Assembly: GCA_030536995.1 (NCBI GenBank)
Contig: JAUNOY010000007.1
Location: 62,001-126,000, forward strand
Source of the DNA: Eubacteriales bacterium
Lineage (GTDB): Bacteria; Bacillota; Clostridia; Lachnospirales; Lachnospiraceae
Reading direction: 5' to 3'
DNA length: 64,000 nt
Shown here: positions 14,351-64,000 of the stretch, one piece after another
How positions within the stretch are numbered: position 1 is the first letter of the stretch
Layout of the letters: every line of letters starts with the position of its first letter
Position numbers and translations under genes: made by a program
The notes under the pieces: model-generated
Databases searched by the model: none
What the model was told of the DNA's origin: nothing
Seen by the model: the letters and a program-made list of their open reading frames with translations, nothing else

Positions 14351-15197
14351 GTTCTTGAACCTCCTCGATAATTTTCTTTGGGGTGGAAGCCCCTGCTGTA
14401 ATACCTACGCAACTACTGCATTGGAACATTTCAGAATCCAAGTCTACAGGTGTTTGTATATAGTAAGTATTTCCACATTCCTTTTTGCATATTTCAAACA
14501 GCTTTTGTGTATTGGAACTATGTCTGCCCCCGACGACTAACATAGTATCTACCTCTGCAGCAATTTCTCTTGCTTCTCTCTGACGCTCTTCGGTAGCATT
14601 ACAAATCGTGTTTAAAATACTAAGAATATCTAAAACACCATTATCATAACTCTTTTTGTGAAGAATTTCAACTAAATCTTTAAATTTGTTGTAATTAAAT
14701 GTCGTCTGTGACACAATACAGACCTTTTTGCCTTCCGGGAAACAAAATTTTTCTGTTTCCTCCCTGTTTTTGAGTACAGTATAAGACCCTTCGCACCAAC
14801 CGCAGATTCCTTTTACTTCCGGATGATCCTTATCCCCAATGATAATGATGTGTTTCCCCTCTTTGCTCTCTCTCGCAACAATCCTGTGGATTTTCAGGAC
14901 AAAAGGACATGTTACATCTACATATTCCACGCCGCAGCTTTCCAGCTTTTCATAAATCTTTTTTCCGACGCCGTGAGAACGGATAACAACAACCCCCTCT
15001 TTCAGAGATTCGATATCCCCTTCTTCAATAACCTGTACTCCTTTTGATGCCAGATCGTTTACCACTTCCTCATTGTGAATAATCGGTCCCAGCGTGTAAA
15101 TAGGACTTTTACCGCTTTCAATCAGCTCGTACACCTTATCTACCGCCCGTTTTACTCCAAAACAGAATCCTGCAGTTTTTGCTACTTTTACCTCCAT
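14331..15197 (-). CDS. ispH: 4-hydroxy-3-methylbut-2-enyl diphosphate reductase IspH
   Basis: The 288-residue enzyme makes the last step of the MEP isoprenoid pathway, giving IPP and DMAPP. The three Cys ligands of its FeS cluster are visible: Cys12 in GFCFGVKRA, the Cys of DVTCPFV, and the Cys of NTICNATEERQ. The conserved VVGGRHSSNT and GITAGASTP motifs are intact. The gene starts 1 nt after the cmk stop and overlaps the S1 gene by 20 nt, so the three are translationally coupled. Confidence 0.97.
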   Translation of the reverse strand: MEVKVAKTAGFCFGVKRAVDKVYELIESGKSPIYTLGPIIHNEEVVNDLASKGVQVIEEGDIESLKEGVVVIRSHGVGKKIYEKLESCGVEYVDVTCPFVLKIHRIVARESKEGKHIIIIGDKDHPEVKGICGWCEGSYTVLKNREETEKFCFPEGKKVCIVSQTTFNYNKFKDLVEILHKKSYDNGVLDILSILNTICNATEERQREAREIAAEVDTMLVVGGRHSSNTQKLFEICKKECGNTYYIQTPVDLDSEMFQCSSCVGITAGASTPKKIIEEVQEHVRIKF

Positions 15198-58433: not shown

Positions 58434-58469
58434 AAATGTCTCCTTATTCCCCCATACCATATAGTAAAA

Positions 58470-58500
58470 CAGCGCCGGTAAACAAATATTACCTGCGCTG
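58470..58500. terminator. Terminator hairpin between the mobile element and the kinase operon
   Basis: CAGCGCCGGTAA and TTACCTGCGCTG form a 12-bp stem with one mismatch. GTTTTACT follows on the minus strand. It would stop integrase transcription from entering the kinase operon. Confidence 0.7.
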
Positions 58501-58656
58501 TTCTTTCACTGTACCTTGAAATTCTACTCATTTTCTACTTAGATGCAAAAATACCATATCCACATCTATTTATATAATCTCATACTTATTTCTGCACAAT
58601 ATTTATATCTACTTGAAAATGTTGGTTTTACGCTGTTTTCGCTATTTATCTTCTGA

Positions 58657-58682
58657 TTTACTCCATTTTTACTCCAAATTTA
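58657..58682 (+). repeat. Left TTTACTCCA repeats (candidate integrase arm sites)
   Basis: Two copies, TTTACTCCATTTTT at 58657-58670 and TTTACTCCAAATTTA at 58668-58682, overlap each other and the integrase stop codon. The same words recur at the right end in the same orientation. Confidence 0.6.
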
Positions 58683-59882
58683 AGCCAATATTTTCAGTTC
58701 AGCTACTTCTTCTTTTTTCTTCTCTTCTGAAACGTGAGTGTATAAATCGGTTGTCATTGCCAATGTTGAGTGACCTAAGAGTTTCTGCACTACCTGTTGG
58801 TCTACTCTATTTTCATAACACCTTGTAGCGTATGTATGTCGCAGAGTGTGACAGGTAAACAGTTCAAATATCTTCGGCTCTCTCTTTTCTTCCTTTGCCA
58901 GTTCAATCTCTATTACATTGATTTTTGCCACATAGTCTTTGATTGCGCTATTGACGTTGTAATAATAAACTGGCGAACCGTCCGAACAGGTAAATACCAA
59001 GTTTTGAAATTCTTTATGCTGTTTCCATATCGAGCGTTTCCACATCTTCTGTTCTGTCTGCTTTATCTTCTGATTTTGTAAAATCTCATACACTTCATCT
59101 GTCATAGGAATGACACGATTACTGGATATGGTTTTTGCAGTCGTATAGAAAAACTTTGAACCCTCTACGGGACTAGAAGCCTTTGAATAATGAATTGTCT
59201 TATTGATTGTAATTTCTCTTTTTTCAAAGTCACAATCTTCCCATTTTAGTCCCAGCACTTCTCCAATCCGACAGCCTGTTGTCACAGCAAATTTCAGAAC
59301 ATTGATGTGTATGTAGGAAGAAGCAAATGTAAAAAATTTCTCCTGTTCTTCTCTTGTTAATACACGTCTTTCTTTTTTCACTTCTTTTGGCATTTCCACG
59401 CCGATACAGGGATTTTTTCTGATGTATTCACTCAATACTGCTTTATCAAACATATCACTTAACATAAATCTGATATTCGATACTGTTCCATGTGCAAGAC
59501 CGCTGTCTATCAAGTCATTCAAAAACTTCTGAACGTGATATGTTTTAATGTCCTGCAAATACATCTTTCCGATAGAGTTCTTCACTCTTGAATTGTAGTA
59601 ACTGTGGTTTTTATATATCGTAGTCATTTTAACTGTTTTCTTCTTATACAACTCTGTCCACGTTACATACCATGCGTTTAAAGTGATACTTTCGCCATTG
59701 CCATTCAAACCATGTTCATCTTCATAAACCGCTTCTCGCAACTTCCGTTTTAATTCATTCAGTTTAAAATCATAAAGCGTTTTACGTTTCCCTGTTTTAC
59801 TTGTAAATCTTGCAATATAGCGTCCGTCTGCTCTCTGTGAAATTCCCTTACCGAGTTCTTTGCCTTTTAAATCTTTACCCAT
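58680..59882 (-). CDS. int: Tyrosine recombinase integrase (Tn916-type)
   Basis: The 400-residue integrase has an N-terminal arm-binding segment (about 1-65), a SAM-like core-binding domain (about 70-165) and a catalytic domain. The catalytic residues are Arg205 (TGCRIGEVLGLKW), His345-x-x-Arg348 (CHTLRHTYATR), His371 (LLGHSTLAMT) and Tyr381 (DLYTHV). AAAGGA lies eight bases before the ATG. It reads outward to the left end. The family drives integration of ICEs and mobilisable elements. Confidence 0.96.
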   Translation of the reverse strand: MGKDLKGKELGKGISQRADGRYIARFTSKTGKRKTLYDFKLNELKRKLREAVYEDEHGLNGNGESITLNAWYVTWTELYKKKTVKMTTIYKNHSYYNSRVKNSIGKMYLQDIKTYHVQKFLNDLIDSGLAHGTVSNIRFMLSDMFDKAVLSEYIRKNPCIGVEMPKEVKKERRVLTREEQEKFFTFASSYIHINVLKFAVTTGCRIGEVLGLKWEDCDFEKREITINKTIHYSKASSPVEGSKFFYTTAKTISSNRVIPMTDEVYEILQNQKIKQTEQKMWKRSIWKQHKEFQNLVFTCSDGSPVYYYNVNSAIKDYVAKINVIEIELAKEEKREPKIFELFTCHTLRHTYATRCYENRVDQQVVQKLLGHSTLAMTTDLYTHVSEEKKKEEVAELKILA

Positions 59883-59964
59883 ACCAACTTTCCTTTCTTC
59901 TACTGAAAGAAATATGGTAAAGTAAATATTTCAATTTTCATTATATCGACACCCCATTTTCTTT

Positions 59965-60144
59965 TCAAGCCCTTTTGCATTGATATTCTAGCCATTCATC
60001 AAGTAATTTCTTATTTGCATACAGCCGATTACCAATGCGTACCGTAAATCTATTTTTCGGATTGTTCAACAGTTCTCTTGCCTTTGTTTTTCCAATCCCC
60101 ATATACTCACAAAATTCATTTATATTTAGTAATGCTTTTTCGAT
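59965..60144 (-). CDS. xis: Excisionase-like small protein, apparent AUC start
   Basis: The 59-residue frame reads EKALLNINEFCEYMGIGKTK at the start, then RELLNNP, and ends VRIGNRLYANKKLLDEWL plus a basic tail. This is the winged-helix pattern of Tn916-type Xis and DNA-binding domain family 17 proteins. No ATG, GTG or TTG lies before the fold in frame; the only internal ATG (Met15) would cut it. AUC at 60142-60144 has GGGGG seven bases upstream, so an AUC start is proposed. It begins 4 nt after the MobT-type gene and lies 82 nt upstream of int. Confidence 0.75.
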   Translation of the reverse strand: MEKALLNINEFCEYMGIGKTKARELLNNPKNRFTVRIGNRLYANKKLLDEWLEYQCKRA

Positions 60145-60148
60145 ACGA

Positions 60149-61222
60149 TTACCCCCTTTCCTCTAATCTTCTTGCTTTTATATAATCATCATACAACTGC
60201 TTCTGTGTGATATTCATTTCTCCATTTGCCACAAGATTACCGATATAATCCCTTTTCTCTATCTTTCCAACCTCTGCAAACAGTTTCAAAGACGGAGCAA
60301 CATACTTTTCTAACCATTCCCACACCTTTTGCAGACTTTTCTTCTGTGGTTGCATGGTAAGTTTCACCTTGCCTATGTCTTTCATCAGTTCCGCCCATGC
60401 TTGATAAGTTGGATAAAGCCTTTTTCGTGTCGTCATGCTGTCTGTCGGCTTTTCTAAAAATCGTATTTTGCTGTTCAACACTTCCATTGCCAGTCCTGCC
60501 ACATCTCTATATCTCAATAATTCCTGTACTACACTTACCGCCATTTCCTGCCGAAATCTCAACTCATATCTATTCCAATTTTCGTCTAATTCTGTTCCAT
60601 ACTTTTTATTCTGTTCATATCCCTTTTCATAAAATACCAATCTCAAATTACTGACTGAACTGCCGAGATAAAGACTACCACCTTTACTCTGAAACACTTC
60701 TTCTTTCAGTTCTCCCGAGTCGTGAAAATCTATCTCCCTTAGTTTTGTGGAAAGCAATCCCTCTTTTGTCCGTACAATCAAATCGGGAATACTCAAATAC
60801 GGTTTTCTGTCGTCTATCGCCAAATCAATCCGAGGAAAATTGATGTGATACTGACAAACTCTGTTTAAGAAATCAAACCATGTTTCCTCATTGAGTTGTA
60901 AAAAATTCTCATAGTTGCGACAGCCTTTCCCACTCATCAAAATCTGAAAGCCTTGATACTGTGCGTTTCCTGTCGGCTTTAGCACCTTGATATTATCGAA
61001 GATTGCCACAACCTCATGTCCTGCAATCCCCTTTTCATAGCCCGTTACGGTCATAAGTTCCAAAGGTATTCTCAGTACATCTTCTATAACTGCTTCTAAC
61101 GGAACTTCCTTAACGGTTATCTGACACCAGTCTATCAAGGCACTTAATTCTTCTTTCTGTCGTATTACTCCCCTGTTAGTGTAGGGGAGTTCTGGAAGAA
61201 AACTTCCGCTTCTTTCTTCCAA
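60149..61222 (-). CDS. MobT/Rep_trans-type replication-initiation or relaxase protein
   Basis: The protein has about 357 residues. The N-terminal LIDWCQITV, the central FPRIDLAIDDRKPYL, and GGSLYLGSSVSNLRLVFYEKGYEQ match the Rep_trans family, which includes rolling-circle initiators and MobT relaxases of Tn916/ICESt3-like elements. The Tyr in VFYEK or a nearby Tyr may be catalytic, though this is inferred. A TTG at 61220-61222, ten bases after AGGAGG, is preferred to the TTG nine bases upstream that abuts it. Two hairpins directly upstream may be its oriT. Confidence 0.8.
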   Translation of the reverse strand: MEERSGSFLPELPYTNRGVIRQKEELSALIDWCQITVKEVPLEAVIEDVLRIPLELMTVTGYEKGIAGHEVVAIFDNIKVLKPTGNAQYQGFQILMSGKGCRNYENFLQLNEETWFDFLNRVCQYHINFPRIDLAIDDRKPYLSIPDLIVRTKEGLLSTKLREIDFHDSGELKEEVFQSKGGSLYLGSSVSNLRLVFYEKGYEQNKKYGTELDENWNRYELRFRQEMAVSVVQELLRYRDVAGLAMEVLNSKIRFLEKPTDSMTTRKRLYPTYQAWAELMKDIGKVKLTMQPQKKSLQKVWEWLEKYVAPSLKLFAEVGKIEKRDYIGNLVANGEMNITQKQLYDDYIKARRLEERG

Positions 61223-61243
61223 ATTTATCAAACCTCCTTATCT

Positions 61244-61304
61244 GCAATGGCGTTGCCATTGCCCTGCCCTCAACCTGCCGTTTGGTACGTCAGAACGAGG
61301 GCAG
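61244..61304. other. Paired inverted repeats, candidate oriT or replication origin
   Basis: GCAATGGC-GTT-GCCATTGC (61244-61262) is a perfect 8-bp hairpin. It is followed by CTGCCCTC (61264-61271) and its complement GAGGGCAG (61297-61304), enclosing an imperfect inner stem (CTGCCGT with ACGTCAG). The block is GC-rich in an AT-rich element and lies directly upstream of the MobT-type gene, where oriT is found in Tn916-like elements. The nick site is not identified. Confidence 0.5.
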
Positions 61305-61317
61305 GAACTTTGACCGC

Positions 61318-61647
61318 CTACATATTTTTGTTTGGAACAGGGCGGATACCCTTACAGGTAATCTTCTCCACTAATACAGGGAAGTTTCCTCTCTGCACAT
61401 AAGGGGCATAAACTGGTTCTTCCAGTTCCACCACAGCATAAGGCTCAATCTTCGGAAGTTCCGTTGCTTCCAAGCGAATATCCACGCTGTTCCCAAGCTT
61501 CATGCTTCCAAGATGAAGTTTTAAGGCTTCCACTTCCTCTGTTTTCTTCTTACTGTCTTTATCATAGCGGTAACAGTTATCCGCACCCATGAAACGAAGT
61601 TCTCCAAATGCTTCTTTTACCTGTTCTTTTGTCAATGTAATCTGCAT
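61318..61647 (-). CDS. DUF961-like protein (Tn916 Orf23/YdcP type)
   Basis: The 109-residue protein has FGELRFMGADNCYRYD near the start, TEEVEALKLHLGSM, and the late PKIEPYAVVELEEPVYAPYV, resembling Tn916 Orf23 and YdcP of ICEBs1. Their role is unsettled, though in ICEBs1 relatives help plasmid-like replication of the excised circle. AAAGGA lies six bases before the ATG. It is the first gene of the int-ward operon and faces the repressor promoter region. There is no second DUF961 copy. Confidence 0.7.
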   Translation of the reverse strand: MQITLTKEQVKEAFGELRFMGADNCYRYDKDSKKKTEEVEALKLHLGSMKLGNSVDIRLEATELPKIEPYAVVELEEPVYAPYVQRGNFPVLVEKITCKGIRPVPNKNM

Positions 61648-61724
61648 ACACGTTCCTTTCTCCCCGTTGAACCGATAGGTCAGTTTCTCATATTTTCATT
61701 TTCATATTTACGACGTCGATTTTT

Positions 61725-61807
61725 AGTTCAGTTATTTCTGAACTTAATTGTATATTAGCACAGACGCATTCGTTTTGCAATACAAAGTTTAGTTTTTTAT
61801 AAACTTT
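61725..61807. promoter_or_regulatory. Divergent promoters sharing one -35 box, with operator palindromes
   Basis: The palindrome TTGCAA (61775-61780) serves both strands: plus-strand -10 TATAAA at 61798-61803 and minus-strand -10 TAATAT at 61752-61757, each 17 nt away. AGTTCAG-N6-CTGAACT (61725-61744) lies at the start of the minus transcript, and AAAGTTTA-N8-TAAACTTT (61784-61807) overlaps the plus promoter. These look like repressor operators in a lysogeny-type switch. Confidence 0.65.
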
Positions 61808-61899
61808 TTATTTTCTTTTTTCTGAACTTGTGGTATAGTGTCCTTAGATGATAAGATATGAGCAGTTATAACGAGATATGGAAAGAGAGGTTTTTTCAG

Positions 61900-62583
61900 A
61901 TGAATACAGTCGCAGAACGGATTAAATTTGCCATGAAAGCAAAAAATAAAAAACAGGTGGATATAGTCAAAGATACTGGTATCAGCAAAGGGGCGTTCAG
62001 TTCTTATCTTTCGGGACAGTACAACCCGAAAGCCGATAAAATGGAACTGATTGCTGACTCCTTAGATGTAGACTTGCGGTGGCTTTACGGACAAAATGTG
62101 CCTATGGAACATACAAGCCAAAATAACAATGCCCTGCAATATGTCTTTTATAACAACTCCTGTTCCGAATATCTTCTTGATAATTTAGACGATATATATA
62201 TTGCCATGATGACCCAGTATGCCGCCCTTATTCCACGCTTTTATGTTCTTGTCAATCGTGCTGGAAATGCAATGCACATATTACCTTTATTTTTGAAAGA
62301 GGATAGTTCCCAATTCTATGAATGTCCGTCTGATTTCTTCTATTCCGACAGGCATACTATTTTTACAAGAGATTTTGAAAGCATTCACATGGTATTAACA
62401 ACTGCCACAATTTACTATTACGGAATTGATACAAAGACCTATGAACCAAGAGTTACCAAACTTTCCTACTCACAGACTGACGATTGCTTTTATATCGACA
62501 ATGAAGTACATGATTGTCACATAAAAGCATTTGAAAAAGAAGTGATAAAAGAAGCACTTTACTTAAAGAATAACGCCCAGTAA
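61900..62583 (+). CDS. XRE-family transcriptional repressor
   Basis: The 227-residue protein has an N-terminal helix-turn-helix (about 5-62: AERIKFAMKAKNKKQVDIV, then GISKGAFSSYLSGQYNP). A C-terminal domain (80-227) lacks the Ser-Lys dyad of S24 peptidases, so it is not a self-cleaving CI-type repressor. It is transcribed away from the int operon, and operators lie between. It probably keeps the element silent. The ATG at 61900 has GAGAGG nine bases upstream and is preferred over a start at 61858. Confidence 0.85.
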   Translation: MNTVAERIKFAMKAKNKKQVDIVKDTGISKGAFSSYLSGQYNPKADKMELIADSLDVDLRWLYGQNVPMEHTSQNNNALQYVFYNNSCSEYLLDNLDDIYIAMMTQYAALIPRFYVLVNRAGNAMHILPLFLKEDSSQFYECPSDFFYSDRHTIFTRDFESIHMVLTTATIYYYGIDTKTYEPRVTKLSYSQTDDCFYIDNEVHDCHIKAFEKEVIKEALYLKNNAQ

Positions 62584-62590
62584 CAGACAA

Positions 62591-62625
62591 GAGGACTTGC
62601 AAGGTTTCTGACCTTTCAAGTCCTC
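62591..62625. terminator. Hairpin after the repressor gene
   Basis: GAGGACTTG and CAAGTCCTC form a stem, with inner AGGT and ACCT pairing. The T tract is weak, so this may be a poor terminator. Confidence 0.55.
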
Positions 62626-62660
62626 TGCTGTATCATGGTGCTGTTGGCTGTGTCCGTTCC

Positions 62661-62706
62661 GTCAAGGACTGCCCTACGGCGTATCGGCTTCGCCTTGATC
62701 CTTGAC
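62661..62706. repeat. GC-rich inverted repeat between repressor and anti-sigma genes
   Basis: GTCAAGGA (62661-62668) and TCCTTGAC (62699-62706) enclose an inner GGCG/CGCC pair. The block is markedly richer in GC than the surrounding element. Purpose unknown; a mobilisation-related or regulatory site is possible. Confidence 0.5.
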
Positions 62707-62719
62707 CTCACTACACACC

Positions 62720-63307
62720 TTATTTTATTTTCTCATCTACCAATTCTCCATTTTCAATCACAATTATTCTGTCTTTAAATTCTAATATCCACTGATGTGG
62801 TTCTCCACTTCTATTACTCTCTCCTTCTAAGCGAACCATATTTTTATCATTCCCCCATATATTTCGAGCATACATAACTTTCAAACTAGATTTATTCTCA
62901 TCCGTTGCCCCCGAAAAATTCAACTCATATCCTGGTTTCCCTTGCAGTGTAAGATAAGCCGTATCCCCTTGCACTCCATAATTTAAAATAACATTTTCAT
63001 ACATTGCTACACCATGTGTCAAGTGGAAACCAACTCCCATAAGAACTCCCGACAAAATAAACGCTCCAACGAATATTCCTAATGCTTTTCTTCTATTTTT
63101 TTTCTTGATTTTTTTAATCAAATTTACATCTTCAATTTCTTCATTTGTTATCACTGAAAAATTGTCGATTCCCCCTGTCATTTCCTGATAGTACTTTTGA
63201 CATTCTTCACAATTTTTCAAGTGTTTTTCAATTTCTTGATTACTTTCTTTGCTTGTCAATCCATCAATATATAGAGGTAACAAATCTCTAATCATTTCAC
63301 ATTTCAT
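62720..63307 (-). CDS. Zinc-finger anti-sigma factor, membrane-anchored
   Basis: The 195-residue protein has an N-terminal zf-HC2-type domain (His29, Cys33, Cys36 in KHLKNCEECQKYY, with Cys3). One membrane helix follows (about 75-95: LGIFVGAFILSGVLMGVGF), and then an extracytoplasmic domain of about 100 residues with no recognised fold. It should hold the co-encoded ECF sigma at the membrane until signal. Its start overlaps the sigma gene by 11 nt. AT-rich codon use agrees with an element-borne origin. Confidence 0.85.
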   Translation of the reverse strand: MKCEMIRDLLPLYIDGLTSKESNQEIEKHLKNCEECQKYYQEMTGGIDNFSVITNEEIEDVNLIKKIKKKNRRKALGIFVGAFILSGVLMGVGFHLTHGVAMYENVILNYGVQGDTAYLTLQGKPGYELNFSGATDENKSSLKVMYARNIWGNDKNMVRLEGESNRSGEPHQWILEFKDRIIVIENGELVDEKIK

Positions 63308-63782
63308 GGTTACTCTCCTTTCTTATTCTTTGCTTTCCACGATAAAAAGTCACTCTTGCCCAATTTTCATCTTTACCCATAATTTCTCCAATTTCTTTAA
63401 ATGTAAAATCGGCATTTAATCTCAAATACATAACTTCTCGCACCGGCTCTTCCAACAAATGAAGCTTTTTATACAACTCTATTACTTCCATTTTCTGTAT
63501 TGCCGAATTTTCTGTGATTTTCTGACAAGTAGTTTCTTCTACATATTCTGCCACTACTTCTCTATCTTTCTTCTTTAATTCTTTATACCATAAATGCTTT
63601 GCAATCGAACATAACCATACATATATCTTACAGTCACCACGAAAACTATCAATAGATTTTAGGGCTTGAAAAAAAGTTTCTTGTGTGAGTTCTTCGCTTA
63701 AATGTGCATCATGACAAAGGCTAAATAAAAATTTATATACTTGTGGCATATATTTTCGATAGATTTCTACCATTTCTTCCAT
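63297..63782 (-). CDS. ECF-type RNA polymerase sigma factor
   Basis: The 161-residue sigma factor has region 2 (about 8-75: SEELTQETFFQALKSIDSFR; IYVWLCSIAKHLWYKE) and region 4 (about 105-155: REVMYLRLNADFTFKEIGEI; WARVTFYRGKQRIRKE). AGGAGG lies seven bases before the ATG. It forms a unit with the overlapping anti-sigma gene. No obvious target gene lies inside the element, so it may act on host genes or its own promoter. Confidence 0.9.
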   Translation of the reverse strand: MEEMVEIYRKYMPQVYKFLFSLCHDAHLSEELTQETFFQALKSIDSFRGDCKIYVWLCSIAKHLWYKELKKKDREVVAEYVEETTCQKITENSAIQKMEVIELYKKLHLLEEPVREVMYLRLNADFTFKEIGEIMGKDENWARVTFYRGKQRIRKESNHEM

Positions 63783-63807
63783 ACTCTACCCTCCTTTACC
63801 TATATGT

Positions 63808-63831
63808 ACTTTACATATATTTTTCGTTACA
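63808..63831 (-). promoter_or_regulatory. Candidate autoregulated ECF promoter
   Basis: TGTAAC (63826-63831) upstream of the sigma gene resembles ECF -35 elements. The matching -10 is not clear (GTACATATAG is at about the right distance), so this is tentative. Confidence 0.25.
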
Positions 63832-63850
63832 CAAATTTTTTAATTTTTAA

Positions 63851-63888
63851 AAATGGCGTAGATAATGTTCCCACTACCTACGCCATTT
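63851..63888. terminator. 11-bp inverted repeat near the right end, terminator-like
   Basis: AAATGGCGTAG and CTACGCCATTT pair perfectly around a 16-nt loop. TTTTTAAAAATT follows on the minus strand, so it could stop transcripts coming from beyond the window. Confidence 0.5.
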
Positions 63889-63908
63889 CTCATTACATCT
63901 TTGAAATA

Positions 63909-63954
63909 TTTACTCCATTTTCTTTCAATCTTTACTCCAAATTTACTCCATTTT
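63909..63954 (+). repeat. Right TTTACTCCA repeats (candidate integrase arm sites)
   Basis: Copies start at 63909 (TTTACTCCATTTT), 63931 (TTTACTCCAAATTTA) and 63942 (TTTACTCCATTTT). They match the left-end copies in sequence and orientation, supporting the right boundary of the mobile element just beyond. Confidence 0.6.
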
Positions 63955-64000
63955 AAAAATCTGTTACGATATTTTGCGGTATTCTACGATACCTTTTCTT

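Follow-up and report, generated by a model that had tools for sequence, protein, structure and literature searches.

The 64,000-nucleotide stretch of DNA analyzed here, referred to as the window, corresponds to positions 62001 to 126000 of contig C14 in a genome assembly of 2.83 Mb (40 contigs, 92% complete), and very probably its far end holds an integrative mobilizable element (IME) of the MobT type that is site-specific for the 3′ end of leuS, the essential gene for leucyl-tRNA synthetase (LeuRS), and that accommodates its cargo in one exchangeable slot. The distance from one core to the other is 5,502 bp, and the element spans 58586 to ~64105 in extrapolated window coordinates, so that its right end falls slightly beyond both the window and contig C14, which extends 75 bp past the window end. 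In this genome the slot is occupied by a sigma/anti-sigma pair and no other genes, as a first-pass annotation of the window had proposed. The same annotation was also correct in describing the element as stripped: a Pfam and NCBIfam scan of the seven main genes between the cores, with smaller overlapping open reading frames (ORFs) left out, detected no type IV secretion, coupling, or mating pore genes.

Element ends and relatives at leuS

The left end of the element is marked by an 18-bp core, AATATTGTGCAGAAATAA, at 58586-58603 (minus strand; attL). It is a copy of the leuS 3′ end, comprising the last codons and the stop, and matches at 18 of 18 positions the leuS end of the same genome on contig C16, where the other copy of the duplicated core lies. 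This right core (attR, ~64088-64105) sits with leuS just beyond the window and was reached through a contig overlap: the final 55 bp of C14 are the final 55 bp of C16 reversed, leuS lies on C16 behind the overlap, and the overlap was the only match of the C14 tail outside C14 at E ≤ 0.001 in 61 genomes. A right boundary far past 64 kb with conjugation genes would, according to the first-pass annotation, have refuted its interpretation; the boundary is instead ~100 bp beyond the window and adjoins leuS. Since the core carries the last leuS codons and the stop, leuS is left intact by the insertion. An unoccupied leuS end is found in a genome of the same genus (G011; LeuRS 90% identical), in which the same core is followed by ordinary flank and the leuS region lacks the sigma/anti-sigma pair.

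Some observations weigh against placing the element at leuS. The join rests on the 55-bp overlap of contig ends, and it draws no support from gene order, as homologs of the kinase gene on the other side of the insertion are not beside leuS in the fetched stretches of three genomes of the same genus (G015, G036, and G009), and no kinase gene was present around leuS in the stretch fetched from G011. Of the suggested search for an empty site in related genomes, the unoccupied core was borne out and the synteny was not. The corresponding element of Blautia hansenii is also assembled from two contigs without an overlap. The assembly of the window's genome breaks within the right end of the element, in a 55-bp stretch common to two contigs (L009:8021-8075 and L063:12740-12794), and such a break might arise if another copy, or a strain with the same element end, were present.

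Recombination of the 18-bp core at the leuS end, leaving leuS intact, would be carried out by a tyrosine integrase (Int; 58680-59882, minus strand, 400 amino acids [aa]) aided by an excisionase (Xis). Int scores 96.9 bits against Phage_integrase (cut-off, 27.1), its N-terminal DNA-binding domain is the Integrase_DNA domain of Tn916 (27.4 bits; cut-off, 27.0), and its ratio of nonsynonymous to synonymous substitution rates (dN/dS) is 0.03 to 0.04 against three relatives. Xis (59965-60153, minus strand) has a probable non-ATG start, an ATC at 60151-60153. Read from ATG (59965-60102), it scores 14.9 against the Tn916-Xis model (cut-off, 22.9) and covers positions 26 to 64 of the 69 in the model; read from ATC, it scores 28.7 and covers positions 13 to 64. 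Within 60102-60153, the apparent ATC start overlaps the stop codon of mobT.

The TTTACTCCA repeats had initially been taken as the flanks of an element extending from 58628 to 63975. This delimitation was abandoned, and the repeats were ruled out as attachment repeats, as they are enclosed by the exact core copies and the layout is the same in relatives. Two copies occur at the int end (58657-58665 and 58668-58676) and three at the leuS end (within 63909-63950), all on the plus strand and kept in relatives, and one further copy lies far off in the window at 15151. The 9-mer is common genome-wide (39 matches versus 28 for its reversed control), and TTTACTCCAWWTTTA, with at most one mismatch, is found four times in the window, at the two ends of the element only, where 0.08 matches would be expected. 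The repeats are probably arm sites for Int, a reading based on the analogy with Tn916- and lambda-type integrases together with the Integrase_DNA domain of the Tn916 type.

Elements of this kind occur repeatedly at leuS. A pattern-based scan of one genome per species (84,980 species) with the MobT protein yielded 26 loci, and nine elements, counted once each, carry an integrase 90 to 100% identical to that of the window; all nine are linked to leuS. Besides the window, these are found in Cuneatibacter caecimuris (L037), [Ruminococcus] torques (L038), B. hansenii (L039), a Lachnospiraceae metagenome-assembled genome (MAG; L040), Clostridiales VE202-21 (L042), two Mediterraneibacter MAGs (L043 and L044), and genome G251 (L073). 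The linkage is on the same contig in seven of the nine, via the contig overlap in the window, and via a separate leuS contig that bears the element right end in B. hansenii (G483:C7). A tenth element (L062) is also at leuS and has a truncated mobT, and L038 has no XRE gene and a truncated DUF961 gene. In a protein search of the family, the integrase was recovered from 6 of 397 genomes at E ≤ 1e-120, its own included (five 91 to 100% identical and one 55%), and within the genus it was found only in its own genome among 64 at E ≤ 1e-100. The backbone DNA of six of the eight relatives (L037, L038 over 2.9 kb only, L039, L040, L042, and L073) is 93 to 96% identical to that of the window, although the LeuRS proteins of the relatives' hosts are much more diverged (54 to 85% identical, and 55 to 85% in these six), which argues for recent transfer; identity of the backbone to L043 and L044 is 80 to 81%. 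The remaining MobT relatives either have an integrase of only 34 to 40% identity or lack one in the stretch that was fetched, and this points to the integrase as an exchangeable module. At one of these loci (L041), MobT is 94% identical to that of the window and the integrase only 38%, apparently an integrase module swapped on the same mobilization module.

The cargo slot and its contents

Comparison with the relatives shows one exchangeable slot between the backbone and a hairpin at the leuS end that is presumed to be a terminator. The slot, defined as the stretch not common to other leuS elements, covers 62715-63850, and its edges were taken from blastn of the joined leuS-element-flank order against the relatives' loci. 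The backbone edge is sharp, at 62713-62715 in seven of eight relatives (L038 has a longer deletion) and ~5 bp beyond the anti-sigma stop. The leuS-side edge is at 63848-63851, on the 3′ side of the hairpin, in four of the eight (L037, L038, L040, and L043). That this second edge is not uniform counts against a slot with fixed limits: in L042 and L044 it falls before the hairpin, just beyond the arm sites, whereas in L073 it lies within the hairpin. For B. hansenii, the comparison at this side meets only a remnant right end.

The content of the slot differs from element to element, and the search for the same gene set with other cargo, as advised in the first-pass annotation, was answered by these leuS-linked relatives; the sigma/anti-sigma pair is in the slot of one of the nine elements. 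The slot of L037 contains a MerR/TipAS protein and an XRE protein, that of L038 a GNAT protein, and that of L040 a DUF3795 protein with small proteins. L044 has a protein of 494 aa (L044:4006-5490) with a weak N-terminal HATPase match under the cut-off, and L042 has the same protein in two frames, while the slot of the B. hansenii element (L139) has two small proteins judged by eye to be membrane-bound. L043 carries a 622-aa DEDDh exonuclease protein (L043:2907-4775), the exonuclease part of which matches PDC-S48 models at E 2e-30, and residues 30 to 279 of the L073 protein (L073:11814-13202), which adjoins an XRE protein, match PDC-S61 at E 1.3e-114. The near-full match to PDC-S61 and the partial match to PDC-S48 make the slot a place to look for small defense genes. 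The MerR and XRE proteins of L037 also have PADLOC matches (mad1, RmrA, and others), which were not counted as defense, since they cover mainly DNA-binding domains.

The leuS-side hairpin (63851-63888, minus strand) is followed by a T run and folds far better than its shuffles (z −8.9). The same was true of all six right ends tested, namely, those of the window, L037, L040, L043, L139, and the L039 remnant (z −5.0 to −9.1; L038, L042, L044, and L073 were left out), two of which carry a different stem sequence. The hairpin is presumably a replacement terminator for leuS that shields the cargo from leuS read-through. This role is less secure in light of the L037 hairpin, which has no clear T run, and of a simple terminator scan of the window, which did not call the hairpin. 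On its kinase side, the insertion is followed by a second hairpin (58455-58520, z −4.8) that may be the original leuS terminator, from which the gene is now separated by 5.5 kb.

For a small element that has recently crossed gut-bacterial genera, this analysis defines the ends, the target gene, the layout, and the cargo slot, and the sharp backbone edge makes the cargo of new members easy to read off. Beyond this, we tentatively propose, at odds lowered by the less uniform leuS-side edge, that the family of small leuS elements might be a plug-in carrier in gut bacteria, exchanging short autonomous cassettes in one slot. These cassettes would be candidate phage defense genes, regulators, or a complete extracytoplasmic function (ECF) sigma/anti-sigma switch, and the slot would be framed by a constant mobility backbone and, in most copies examined, by an insulating hairpin. 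In such a system a whole sense-and-respond unit could cross genera with leuS expression untouched, and accretion at leuS could bring new cargo, as in B. hansenii, in which the closest relative of the sigma factor is found next to element remnants.

The sigma/anti-sigma pair

The window offers a natural example in which an entire sigma/anti-sigma operon travels as the only cargo of an element. The sigma gene (63297-63782, minus strand) overlaps the anti-sigma gene (62720-63307, minus strand) by 11 bp and encodes a SigM-like ECF sigma factor with both Sigma70 regions 2 and 4 (Sigma70_r2, 55.2 bits; cut-off, 24). The protein passes the general ECF model (73.3 versus 42.9 bits), and its nearest subfamily is SigM, at 103 bits against a cut-off of 148. 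The anti-sigma factor matches zf-HC2 (44.7 bits; cut-off, 22.2) and has one hydrophobic segment, at residues 76 to 94; no Pfam model matches its C-terminal part. An alignment of the anti-sigma factor comprised four sequences only. Against B. hansenii, dN/dS is 0.06 for sigma and 0.22 for anti-sigma, both at high dS (1.2 and 2.0, respectively). A plausible scheme is that the membrane anti-sigma factor would hold sigma until an envelope signal releases it, upon which the main target of sigma would be its own operon, with few other promoters, if any, responding.

The predicted sigma-dependent autoregulatory promoter, TGTAAC-N16-GTACATATA, lies at 63801-63831 on the minus strand. TGTAAC is present upstream of 19 of 22 sigma genes (those of the window, L039, and 20 of 22 fetched regions, with L088 and L089 left out), compared with a mean of 0.6 and a maximum of 3 in mononucleotide shuffles, and an ACNTATA-like element mostly follows downstream at near-constant spacing. 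Of the three exceptions, two carry a one-base variant, and the third is L109, in which no gene start was assigned. Some of the upstream stretches closely duplicate others, so they are not all independent. The genome contains a single exact copy of TGTAAC-N16-GTACWTATA, at 63801-63831 in front of sigma, and when up to two mismatches are allowed there are nine matches in all versus 27 with the reversed control, which gives no indication of a large regulon. The expectation in the first-pass annotation that the cargo would rewire host transcription accordingly found no support. A second promoter pattern gave one match in the same genome, against one for its control, and at most two sites in each of 10 other genomes, one of which is the sigma gene's own promoter in six of the seven genomes with a close sigma homolog. 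There may still be a few divergent target promoters besides sigma's own. A 31-bp repeat (family D4) shared between xis and the region upstream of sigma was dropped as a candidate because it lies in xis coding sequence and the protein is 96 to 100% conserved in eight relatives without the pair in the slot.

The pair might be thought to serve the element itself, as a control circuit in which an envelope signal acts through sigma on the excision or mobilization genes. Its location inside the element, next to the XRE gene, fits such a role, and element-borne transfer regulators are common. However, only one of the nine leuS elements with the same backbone carries the pair, and the element contains no second copy of the promoter better than three mismatches, one such site lying inside xre. 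In addition, none of the 22 fetched regions around the better sigma matches showed a relative of int, xis, mobT, DUF961, or XRE at E ≤ 1e-4, such that these homologs stand alone in the chromosome without element genes. A control circuit is thus quite improbable, and the pair is better regarded as exchangeable cargo. ECF-type relatives are common (a match at E ≤ 0.001 in 52 of 61 relatives); close relatives of the sigma factor were found less often, in 11 of the 397 genomes of the family at E ≤ 1e-50, its own included. A sigma (43%)/anti-sigma (33%) pair is also present in a fecal record filed as phage (MT836894.1, L066:4233-5041).

The nearest relative of the pair is in B. hansenii (sigma, 86%; anti-sigma, 49%), where it lies just beyond a leuS-type element. 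The order there (L039:4226-6629 and L139) is the element, a remnant right end (core, hairpin, and 101-aa ORF), a GNAT gene, the sigma pair, a lipoprotein-like gene, queH, and argH, the last three named by eye. This proximity would suit a history in which the sigma operon has long stood beside leuS in the chromosome, with what looks like an element being an insertion in partial decay next to it. We consider this extremely improbable, as the pair in the window lies inside the duplicated cores, flanked by the arm sites at the leuS end and by the backbone, and the leuS region of G011 has no such pair. Moreover, the B. hansenii pair follows a remnant right end, and of 20 genomes this is the only one in which the pair is contiguous with queH-argH: the argH-side sequence is present in all 20 genomes of the genus (contiguity was not judged where a contig ends close by), and other members of the genus have their sigma relatives elsewhere. 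Accretion of elements at leuS, with capture of neighbors, would explain the B. hansenii arrangement, and tandem accretion is known for IMEs (PMC5357655, PMC5704250). In L044 and L037, the int-side core (attL) is directly followed by sequence similar to another element right end, which suggests older accretions at leuS.

Predicted mobilization and comparison with known systems

The remaining backbone genes are consistent with a mobilizable element. A 360-aa Rep_trans/MobT-type relaxase or replication initiator is encoded at 60149-61231 on the minus strand (PF02486, 187.7 bits; cut-off, 29.6), preceded by a gene for a 109-aa DUF961-like protein (61318-61647, minus strand) that adjoins mobT in relatives too, and an XRE-type regulator (61858-62583, plus strand; HTH_3, 25.8 bits; cut-off, 23) is encoded divergently from the mobilization genes. 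The gene set named in the first-pass annotation is therefore upheld for Int, the Rep_trans protein, XRE, the ECF sigma factor, and the zf-HC2 anti-sigma factor, all over their cut-offs, and for Xis only when read from ATC. Two assignments are less secure and weaken the MobT-type interpretation: DUF961 is matched at 17.0 bits (E 0.0085), under the Pfam cut-off of 25, and the NCBIfam MobT equivalog at 178.5 bits, far under its cut-off of 600.

Between the DUF961-like gene and mobT lies a hairpin with a CGTAC loop (61257-61309, minus strand; z −4.9), a candidate origin of transfer (oriT) or nick region. In eight of nine segments from different elements, that of the window among them, the fold reaches z −3.2 to −8.6. 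The ninth segment, which may lose the outer stem, folds no better than shuffles (z 0.1), and the alignment of the region misaligns distant members and gives a weak consensus fold, both of which count against the candidate. In the excised circle, the Rep_trans/MobT protein would nick this hairpin region upstream of its own gene, and the circle would replicate and/or move via a co-resident conjugative element, with the XRE protein presumably controlling the mobilization module. It also tells against mobilization in this host that no second Rep_trans protein is encoded in the assembly (92% complete), so no helper of the Tn916/ICEBs1 type is visible in it.

The Rep_trans protein may instead be only a rolling-circle initiator of the circle, with spread by transduction, transformation, or a helper's relaxase. 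The only solved relative found by sequence (PDB 4cij, E 3.8e-19) is the plasmid-type initiator RepSTK1 (PMC6499999), a Rol_Rep_N domain is present, the NCBIfam MobT cut-off is missed, and a related Int/Rep_trans/DUF961 segment occurs in the fecal "Bacteriophage sp." record MT839987. Set against these points, PMC5357655 and PMC7563843 describe streptococcal IMEs with the same PF02486 family as putative relaxase and demonstrate IME transfer with a relaxase distantly related to MobT. The hairpin region before the relaxase gene also resembles the arrangement in ICESt3, in which oriT is flanked by orfK and by orfJ, the relaxase gene (PMC6499999). Replication alone is an unlikely function, and a MobT-type relaxase is preferred. 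As for the phage record itself, MT839987.1 (4,636 bp; L065) encodes relatives of Int (39%), MobT (63%), and the DUF961-like protein (89%) and has no terminal repeat of at least 15 bp, and by its gene content it appears to be a piece of an element of the window's type filed as phage. Phage records gave three matches, of which this alone was truly similar, across 22% of the query; plasmid records gave a single 60-bp piece only, and IMG/VR gave no MobT relatives.

Alternatively, the element could be an immobile relic that has lost excision and is kept only for its cargo. Decayed relatives do exist (L062, with its truncated mobT, and L038, without XRE and with truncated DUF961), and the mobility of the element is a prediction from its genes. 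On the other hand, all seven genes are open, both cores are present, dN/dS for int and mobT is 0.03 to 0.08, and near-identical backbones occur in other genera. A relic is accordingly improbable, and a mobilizable element better fits these observations.

In the part of the literature searched, leuS was not found as a mobile-element target, nor was a sigma/anti-sigma pair found as sole element cargo, apart from a sigma-70 gene in Table 3 of PMC5704250. In that table, a Streptococcus pyogenes tet(O) fragment is listed as a putative IME with an RNA polymerase sigma-70 factor among its cargo; it differs from the window element in its size (13.4 kb), in carrying tetracycline resistance and five unknown genes, and in having no anti-sigma factor listed. 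Chromosomal ECF sigma/zf-HC2 operons (L078-L089 and L100-L109) likewise have sigma followed by anti-sigma, with a TGTAAC-type promoter in 17 of 20 tested, but they stand alone, whereas the pair in the window is on a mobile element.

As a carrier, the element most resembles known MobT-type systems; general background on gut IMEs is available in PMC6907783. The streptococcal MobT-type IMEs (IME class 1; PMC5357655) also combine a tyrosine integrase with a PF02486 relaxase-like protein, with no coupling protein in 21 of 45 cases, and among streptococcal IMEs, for which the mean IME size is 10 kb, gene 3′ ends serve as targets and tandem accretion occurs. Unlike them, the family described here occurs in gut genera such as Cuneatibacter, Blautia, and Mediterraneibacter, targets leuS, combines a very small backbone with a single slot that takes only a few cargo genes, and has a relaxase far under the NCBIfam MobT equivalog score. 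The IME_oriT family (PMC7563843) is similar in being very small (2.7 to 10.9 kb), with an integrase, a MobT-distant relaxase, a regulator, and varying cargo; its members target the oriT of integrative and conjugative elements (ICEs), unlike the window element, half of them carry lsa(C), and no sigma/anti-sigma pair appears in the parts of that paper examined. With the Tn916/ICEBs1 ICEs, the element shares the Tn916-type Int domain, a Tn916-type Xis, the DUF961-like and Rep_trans/MobT proteins, and a candidate oriT before the relaxase gene, yet it has no transfer genes among its seven genes and a fixed target site.

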